From: Dehalococcoidales bacterium
Lineage (GTDB): Bacteria; Chloroflexota; Dehalococcoidia; Dehalococcoidales; BS750m-G39
Length of the DNA stretch: 32,717 nt
NCBI GenBank assembly: GCA_022865485.1
Contig: JALHSZ010000030.1
Coordinates: forward strand, 1-32,717
Direction of reading: 5' to 3'
Shown here: positions 1 through 2,779 of the stretch, one piece after another
Numbering within the stretch: the stretch's first letter is position 1
Layout: every line of letters starts with the position of its first letter
Notes under the pieces: model-generated
Told to the model about the DNA's origin: nothing
The model's database searches: none
Seen by the model: only the letters and a program-made list of their open reading frames with translations
Position numbers and translations under genes: made by a program

Positions 1-482
1 CGGCGGGTGAAACCGGGGAGATTGTTGTCCGTGGAGCCCGCATAATGAAAGGCTACTGGAAGGACGAGGAGAAGACCAGGAAGGCTTTTACCGCCGACGG
101 CTGGTACCGCACCGGCGACATGGGCTATAAAGACGAGGAGGGCTACATCTACCTTACCGGGCGCGCCGACGACATTATTGTTCGGGGGGGCGAGAACATC
201 GGGCCCAGCGAGGTGGAGAGCGTCCTTTCCACCCACCCCAAAATCGAGGAGGCGGGGGTTATCGGGGTCAAGGATGTGGAGTGGGGGCAGCAGGTCAGGG
301 CTATCGTCAGGCTCAAAGAGGGGGAGAGCGCCACCGAGGCGGAGATTATCGACTTTACTCGCCCCCGGCTGGCTGGGTTTAAGCGCCCGACCTCAATAAT
401 CTTTGTCAGCGGCGAGCTGCCCAAGACCAGCACCGGCAAGGTCCTGCGCCGAGAGCTGCGCGCAAACTACGGCGAGCCTTAA
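1..482 (+). CDS. Acyl-CoA ligase (AMP-binding enzyme), C-terminal part, 5' truncated by window edge
   Basis: This is the 3' end of an ANL-superfamily acyl-CoA synthetase, which activates a carboxylic acid with ATP to an acyl-adenylate and then the CoA thioester. The frame is open from base 3. Visible landmarks are the core motif TGDMGYKDEEGYIYLTGR, the hinge region RADDIIVRGGEN, and the C-terminal A10 motif LPKTSTGKVLRREL with the catalytic lysine. About 160 residues are present, roughly the last third of the usual 500-550, and the upstream part lies outside the window. The substrate cannot be read from this fragment. The stop overlaps by 4 bases the stop of the convergent small gene on the other strand. 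The nearby HdrD-like membrane Fe-S gene makes a role in fatty-acid activation for beta-oxidation plausible, but this is inference. Confidence 0.93.
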   Translation, partial: AGETGEIVVRGARIMKGYWKDEEKTRKAFTADGWYRTGDMGYKDEEGYIYLTGRADDIIVRGGENIGPSEVESVLSTHPKIEEAGVIGVKDVEWGQQVRAIVRLKEGESATEAEIIDFTRPRLAGFKRPTSIIFVSGELPKTSTGKVLRRELRANYGEP

Positions 483-751
483 CCCTGGTCGCGGACGCGG
501 CGAATTTCAAAGACCACCGGGTTATCGGGGTCGGGGCAAGCCACCGTGGTCTTGTCGGGGTCTTTTTCCCAGGGGAAGGCGCCGCCGTACATCAGCGGCG
601 TGATGAAGGGAAAAAGGGAGGAGAAGGCAAAGAGGCACATGCCCCCGGGCGTCTTTTCGCCGACCAGCCACTGGTCGCCGACCTTGTGCCCCGCCTCACA
701 GCTCCCCTTCTGGCTTATTACCTTAATGCTGACCTTGTAGCTTTCCGCCAT
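479..751 (-). CDS. TIGR04076 family protein (90 aa)
   Basis: This small protein resembles the TIGR04076 family of about 90 residues, whose function is unknown. It has the features I associate with that family: an early cysteine (GSCEAGHKVGDQW), a central PGGMCLFAFSSLFPF segment, a Gly-Gly then Trp turn (YGGAFPWE), and a C-terminal ACPDPDNPVVFEIRRV strand. The conserved cysteines suggest a metal or redox role, which is not proven. The ATG at 749-751 has a good ribosome binding site, GAGGAG, and lies 18 bases after the end of the open reading that continues past the stop of the HdrD-like gene. The two are therefore likely one transcript. Confidence 0.8.
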   Translation of the reverse strand: MAESYKVSIKVISQKGSCEAGHKVGDQWLVGEKTPGGMCLFAFSSLFPFITPLMYGGAFPWEKDPDKTTVACPDPDNPVVFEIRRVRDQG

Positions 752-769: not shown

Positions 770-925
770 TTATTCTTCTATCTGCGCCGCCAGCAGCTCG
801 GCGATGTCCATCACCTTGAGTTCAGCCTCTTTGGTCTTGATGCCGTCGTCGAACATCTGCAGGCAGAAGGGGCAGGCGGTAACCACCTTTTGCGCCCCCG
901 TTGCTATCGCCTGCTCGGTGCGCAG
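770..925 (-). pseudogene. Severed C-terminal segment of the HdrD-like protein, downstream of an in-frame TAG
   Basis: After the TAG at 926-928 the same frame stays open for 51 codons, to a TAA at 770-772. It encodes [20 protein letters not shown] and onward, which is the expected end of a CCG domain including the final CPFC motif. There is no start codon or ribosome binding site of its own. If the TAG were read through, the protein would be 669 residues. The segment looks conserved rather than drifted, so the stop is recent, suppressed, or a sequencing or assembly error. Confidence 0.8.
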
Positions 926-2779
926 CTAGTTGATACGGCGGCCTTCGTGCTCTTCCAGCCACATGTGCCCGCCGCCGCCACCGCAGCAGAAGCTGTTCTC
1001 CTTGTTGCGCTCCATCTCCACCATCTTGATGCCGGGGATGGCTTTGACCAGCCGTCGCGGCGGCTGGTAGATATCGTTATAGCGTCCCAGGTAGCAGGCG
1101 TCGTGGTAGGTGACCAGTTCGCTTAAGCTATTATTGACCTTGAGTTTGCCTTCCTTGATTAGCCGGGCGATAAGCTGGGTGTGGTGGATTACCTCGAATT
1201 TGCCGCCGAACTGGGGGTACTCGTTTTTCAGGGTGTGGTAGCCGTGGGGGCAGGCGGTGACGATGCGCTTGACCCCGTAGTTCTTTAAGAGCCCGATGTT
1301 TTTCTCCGCCTGCATCTGGAAGAGGTATTCGTTGCCCAGTCGGCGGGCAGGCTCGCCGCAGCAGCTTTCTTCCGTTCCCAGAATACCGAAGTTGACGCCG
1401 GCTGCCTTGAGCAGCTTAGCCGTAGCCCGGGAAATCTGGGTGCTCCTTTCTTCCAGCGCCCCGGTGCAGCCCACCCAGAAGAGGATGTCCACGTCCTTGT
1501 CGTCGGCCAGAACCTTAATCTCCAGTCCTTTCGCCCAGTCCGTCCGCGACAGCGTCGTGCCCCGCCAGGGGTGGCCGCGGTCTTCGATGCTCCTTAATGC
1601 GCCTTCGGCGGTCTCGGGGATGGACGCCTGCTCCATGACCAGGTTGCGCCTCATATCGATTATCTTTTCCACGTGCTCCACCGCTACCGGGCAGGCTTCC
1701 TGGCAGGCGCGGCAGGTGGTGCAGGCCCAGATTACCTCCTGGGTGATGACCTCGCCGATCATAGCCTTGGCGGGGGCGCCTCCCTTGAGCAGCCCGGGTC
1801 CTTCGGTGAGCAAATGCTCCTTGAGGTCGTCAATCAGCTTCTTGGGATTTAAGGCTTTACCGCTGGCCGTTGCCGGGCAGACCTCCTGGCACTGGCCGTA
1901 GATGACGCAGGAATAGAGGTCTAAAAGCTGCTTGCGGTTGAAGTCGGTTATCTTGGCGGCGCCGAAGCTTTCCGCCTTCTCCAGGTCGATGGGGCGCAGG
2001 GCGCCCTTGGGGGGTGGGGACTGGAGTAGGACGTTGAACATGCTGGCAATCATATGCAGGTAGCGGGAGTAGGCGATGAAGACCAGGACGAAGAGGACGA
2101 AGCCCCAGTGCGCCCAGAAGAAGGCGGTGTTAGCCGCCTGAATCGAGGACTGGCTAGCGCCGTCGAAAAGATTGCTCAGCGCCTGGCTTATGGGAGGCAG
2201 GTGGGTGCCCAGGCCCACCGGTGCGTAGCCCAGGGCGATGCCGGTGGCTTCCTTAAAGAGGTGGGTTAAGGGGTGGATAAACACCGTAACCAGTATGACC
2301 AGCGCCTCGAAGGTCTGTTCGCCCTTGAGTCTCGGCGGCCGGATAACGTAGCGGCGGATGATGGCCCAGAGGGCGCCGAGCATAATAAACGGAGCGGCGA
2401 TATCCATAACCCAGGCGTAGTAGAAGAAGAAGCTGGTGTGCTCCAGCGTCTCGGAGAGGCCCAAGCCGCCGCCGATGATGATAAATATCAGGTAGAAGGG
2501 GATGAAGATGAAGAACCCCCAGGCCATAAAGACGTGGCCCAGGCTGGCCCGGTTCTTGGCGGTCAGGTTTTGCAGCTGGCACCACTGCCCGAATACCCTG
2601 ACGATGGTGCTGGAGACCCTTTTTACGAGGTGGCCGAAGCCGCCCACGGATTGCCCCAGGAGCATGTAGCGCAGTAGCTGGTACATGCGGCGCAGGAACA
2701 GCCCCACGGCCAGGGCGAACAATACCCAGAAGATAACGTAGCCCGGAATTCCCAGGTAGCTCATACTGATTGGCGACAT
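926..2779 (-). CDS. HdrD/GlpC-like membrane Fe-S oxidoreductase (NarI-like membrane domain, two 4Fe-4S sites, CCG domains), ended by a premature TAG
   Basis: This is an electron-transfer protein of the heterodisulfide-reductase-related family, as used for ETF:menaquinone oxidoreduction in anaerobic beta-oxidation. Residues 1 to about 265 form a NarI-like membrane domain with about six hydrophobic segments. Two ferredoxin-type cysteine clusters follow, at about 289-302 (CVIYGQCQEVCP) and 350-363 (CTTCRACQEACP). Next come two CCG domains, with ESCCGEP and CPHG (C510, G513) in the first and SFCCGGGGGHMW (C598, C599) in the second. The reading frame stops with TAG immediately after EGRRIN at residue 617, before the final CPFC motif, which lies in frame downstream. 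The ATG at 2777-2779 follows GGGGAA. The adjacent acyl-CoA ligase supports a fatty-acid or acyl-CoA oxidation role, by inference. Confidence 0.9.
   Translation of the reverse strand: MSPISMSYLGIPGYVIFWVLFALAVGLFLRRMYQLLRYMLLGQSVGGFGHLVKRVSSTIVRVFGQWCQLQNLTAKNRASLGHVFMAWGFFIFIPFYLIFIIIGGGLGLSETLEHTSFFFYYAWVMDIAAPFIMLGALWAIIRRYVIRPPRLKGEQTFEALVILVTVFIHPLTHLFKEATGIALGYAPVGLGTHLPPISQALSNLFDGASQSSIQAANTAFFWAHWGFVLFVLVFIAYSRYLHMIASMFNVLLQSPPPKGALRPIDLEKAESFGAAKITDFNRKQLLDLYSCVIYGQCQEVCPATASGKALNPKKLIDDLKEHLLTEGPGLLKGGAPAKAMIGEVITQEVIWACTTCRACQEACPVAVEHVEKIIDMRRNLVMEQASIPETAEGALRSIEDRGHPWRGTTLSRTDWAKGLEIKVLADDKDVDILFWVGCTGALEERSTQISRATAKLLKAAGVNFGILGTEESCCGEPARRLGNEYLFQMQAEKNIGLLKNYGVKRIVTACPHGYHTLKNEYPQFGGKFEVIHHTQLIARLIKEGKLKVNNSLSELVTYHDACYLGRYNDIYQPPRRLVKAIPGIKMVEMERNKENSFCCGGGGGHMWLEEHEGRRIN

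Follow-up and report, generated by a model that had tools for sequence, protein, structure and literature searches.

The in-frame TAG that interrupts a gene for a membrane Fe-S oxidoreductase in a metagenome-assembled genome (MAG) of Dehalococcoidales is most likely a single-base error in the consensus sequence of that assembly; its location and the codons of relatives at the same site are established, and the error is deduced. The gene is otherwise an ordinary EtfD-like gene, and the organism would probably have a Glu codon at this position and produce the full-length protein of 669 residues. An error is considered most likely because no relative readable at this codon has a stop here and because the genes for DnaA and leucyl-tRNA synthetase (LeuRS) of the same genome carry stops of the same kind. 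The window, which is the whole stretch of 32,717 nucleotides analyzed, corresponds to contig C19 of the MAG designated G000 (1.19 Mb, 88% complete). The following features were recognized.

926..2779, minus strand: open reading frame of the EtfD/HdrD-like membrane Fe-S oxidoreductase as the sequence stands, 617 codons, from ATG at 2779 to the TAG
926..928, minus strand: in-frame TAG, where G002, of the same genus, has GAG
773..925, minus strand: 51-codon continuation, the end of the second CCG domain
863..874, minus strand: CPFC (residues 636-639); it aligns with Cys709 and Cys712 of EtfD, which bind the noncubane cluster D2
770..772, minus strand: TAA at which the gene would normally end, at a position that matches the nearest relatives and directly before the ribosome-binding site of the next gene
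479..751, minus strand: next gene in the same direction, an open reading frame of 90 aa starting with MAESYKV

The preliminary description had reported that the TAG cuts an HdrD-like gene and that 51 well-kept codons with CPFC lie beyond it. This was confirmed: the frame is open down to the TAA, the tail aligns with relatives, and the full frame from 2779 to 770 through the TAG accounts for the 669 residues. The start of the 90-aa gene is also found 3' of the EtfD-like gene in G002, G004, G007, G009, and G010. The records of G010 and G007 are titled Deltaproteobacteria while carrying genes of this Dehalococcoidia family, and these titles look wrong. An Rfam search revealed no known RNA element near the stop, and only four tRNAs were matched in the whole window.

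The site of the TAG was compared among 61 genomes of the order; the relatives are for the most part MAGs that bear the name Dehalococcoidia or Dehalococcoidales. Full-length relatives are common, and 28 of them are readable at this codon. They show GAG (17), GAA (3), CAA (2), and AAG, GTG, GCA, ACC, CTG, and ATC (1 each); thus Glu is encoded in 20 of the 28. None of the 28 has a stop at this site, whereas a conserved programmed read-through is expected to keep the stop in relatives. The TAG is likely to have originated from GAG by a G>T transversion, since GAG is present in G002, which belongs to the same genus and is 90% identical. The GAG in relatives does not support the change from CAG to TAG by C-to-T that had been proposed at first, and this origin was rejected. 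A search for a second genome of this species gave none, and the sequence from G001, the other member of the genus, breaks off at residue 526.

Relatives that naturally end at RIN without CPFC were looked for among the readable sequences and none was recognized; all 28 carry CxxC at the position of CPFC (15 CPFC, 10 CPYC, 2 CSFC, and 1 CPLC). The tail is not a chance sequence, because it aligns with every relative and the CxxC is present in all readable ones. Compared with G002, the tail shows dN 0.039, dS 0.213, and dN/dS 0.18, against dN/dS 0.13 for the rest of the gene, the tail values being derived from only about 11 substitutions. Tail and body have thus diverged at a similar pace. An in-frame deletion of 6 bases in the tail (KEAE--LKV versus KEAEEKLKV) is found only in this genome among the aligned relatives and is absent from G002. 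It may represent either normal variation or the beginning of decay.

Sequence homology relates the protein to EtfD, the ETF:menaquinone oxidoreductase. Among solved structures, mycobacterial EtfD is the closest (PDB 9ojn, phmmer E 1e-109) (PMC13083937), and in both proteins a membrane domain is combined with two 4Fe-4S motifs and a pair of CCG domains in identical order. An N-terminal membrane domain was recognized from about five hydrophobic segments in residues 11-245 on the hydropathy profile, aligned with EtfD 18-342. Pfam analysis of the read-through protein detected two CCG domains and ferredoxin motifs, with Fer4 matches at approximately 285-380 that include two 4Fe-4S ferredoxin-type motifs (Cys 291/297/301 and 353/356/359/363). 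As the sequence stands, the second CCG domain ends at the TAG before CPFC; both CCG domains, including the final CxxC, are complete in the full frame and in all readable relatives. EtfD has in addition a long disordered C-terminus that is lacking here.

In EtfD, the noncubane [4Fe-4S] cluster D2 is coordinated by Cys637, 672, 673, 709, and 712 together with His583, and it takes part in the transfer of electrons between ETF and menaquinone (PMC13083937). D2 residues of EtfD can be aligned with the gene product: CPFC corresponds to positions 709-712, and the His of CPH is also aligned. Truncation after residue 617 would remove two D2 ligands and should leave the protein inactive. The alignment of CPFC with Cys709 and Cys712 supports the earlier proposal that the loss of CPFC should destroy the cluster site.

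The gene product, as far as homology indicates, would be of the EtfD type and transfer electrons from ETF to membrane menaquinone by way of heme and a chain of Fe-S clusters. The ETF genes of this genome are located on a different contig, C48. EMO, the ETF:methylmenaquinone oxidoreductase of syntrophic bacteria, is a membrane heme/Fe-S protein that takes electrons from ETF in anaerobes (PMC8805022), and an EMO-like function is likely here by homology. Heterodisulfide reductase HdrB/HdrD (PDB 5odc) has a common cysteine pattern of CCG domains in the C-terminal part, with weak similarity (E about 1e-5). In contrast to HdrB/HdrD, the protein here has its own membrane domain, and the CoB/CoM disulfide would not be an expected substrate in this bacterium.

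The first CCG domain has CCG and CPHG, in place of CTG and CPHC in EtfD. In the CPHG (residues 510-513; 1241-1252, minus strand), the second Cys of the CxxC is replaced by Gly. The Gly is common to this genome, G001, G002, G004, G007, and G010, while several other relatives have Cys. In EtfD, the corresponding Cys binds the linear [3Fe-4S] cluster, and the Fe-S cluster at this site may differ here.

Other in-frame stops were screened in 744 kb of the genome by comparison with the proteins of family relatives, which gave approximately 82,000 aligned residues from queries of G003. The count was filtered against out-of-frame and antisense open reading frames, and matches with multiple stops and stops near the N-terminus were dropped on inspection. 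Four internal stops in well-aligned surroundings remained, one in the EtfD-like gene and three in other genes, corresponding to about one in-frame stop per 20,000 codons in the assembly. The three others are as follows.

G000:C49:20472: in-frame TAG in DnaA; nearest relative codon GAG
G000:C45:13597: in-frame TAG in LeuRS; nearest relative codon TCG
G000:C52:12156: in-frame TAA in a CoA-transferase; TAC in G002 and TAT in the more distant G003

DnaA and LeuRS are both indispensable proteins, and cells that lack them do not survive. Each is encoded by a single copy above the family cut-offs in this genome. Therefore, the stops in these two genes cannot be real terminators; they are either errors or read through.

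All four stops are G:C>T:A changes in comparison with the nearest codons seen (GAG, GAG, TCG, and TAC). With the substitution spectrum of the branch, four out of four would arise with a probability of 0.008, and with equal rates of 0.02, for a class that was noticed after the data were seen and that rests on four events. This class is produced by guanine oxidation in library preparation (PMC8748355), and the pattern fits errors of the oxidation type. A genome-wide excess of this type was not seen: G:C>T:A constitutes 7.9% of the substitutions of this genome, versus 9.9% on the G002 branch. Weighing against the error reading, the spectrum and the small number of four stops do not show a pervasive artefact. 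Among the control targets G002, G003, and G010, one clear in-frame stop was found, in G010:C85; the samples were smaller for G002 and G010, and the control samples are too small to call this genome exceptional or worse than other MAGs. The stop in G010:C85 (minus strand) lies in an EtfD-like paralog beside an EtfB-like gene, with TAG at a Glu position (HCYNTIKN*YPRYGG).

Of the explanations offered in the preliminary description, the sequencing error is the best supported, a null mutation is possible, and the evidence disfavours read-through. The main rival to the error, less likely but worth considering, is a genuine nonsense mutation of recent date, carried by the sampled strain or by some of its population, with an inactive truncated protein whose role is covered by a paralog or another route. 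The loss could be tolerable, as the genome has a second EtfD-like gene on contig C30 (46% identical) and other HdrD-like proteins. The second EtfD-like gene (G000:C30:2-1102) runs off the end of the contig, and a separate HdrD-like protein of 394 aa is encoded near it (G000:C30:5118-6077). The unchanged constraint on the tail suits a mutation too young for decay, and the 6-base deletion is also in line with loss. However, a null allele leaves the stops of DnaA and LeuRS unexplained, and whatever caused these would also cover the stop of the EtfD-like gene. No nearly invariant position of the relatives is broken in the rest of the gene, which speaks against a null allele and rules out decay of the gene as a whole.

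Far less probable is read-through of UAG, whether by a suppressor tRNA, by pyrrolysine, or in a programmed manner, which would yield either long and short forms or a complete protein that carries a different residue. TAG represents three of the four in-frame stops, two of them within indispensable genes; the paralog in G010:C85 of a family relative likewise has TAG at a Glu position, and users of pyrrolysine are known among Chloroflexi (PMC5424206). Against this, a search for a TAG-suppressor tRNA, as had been suggested, found none with the anticodon CUA among 40 tRNAs, a partial tRNA at C52 reading GGT. Pyrrolysine was rejected on the basis of PylS_Cterm, with the best score of 27 bits in this genome against the cut-off of 178 and scores below the cut-off in all 61 genomes, and of PylB and PylD, below the cut-off in all 11 family genomes. 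TAG is moreover the commonest stop, ending 196 of about 494 long open reading frames, so that about 40% of proteins would be lengthened if suppression were general. The in-frame stop of the CoA-transferase is TAA rather than TAG, and the site in the EtfD-like gene shows TAG in none of the relatives. The case against a suppressor tRNA is strong but not absolute, because the bin is 88% complete and several expected tRNAs are missing. It is equally doubtful that the lineage tolerates leaky decoding, with the UAG of DnaA, LeuRS, and the EtfD-like gene partly read as an amino acid despite being the commonest stop; if true, this would be an unusual ambiguous genetic code.

A consensus error thus remains the preferred explanation of the TAG, and the result calls for caution. 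Isolated in-frame stops occur in this MAG even within single-copy indispensable genes, and without reads a single in-frame stop is no proof that a gene is lost or recoded.
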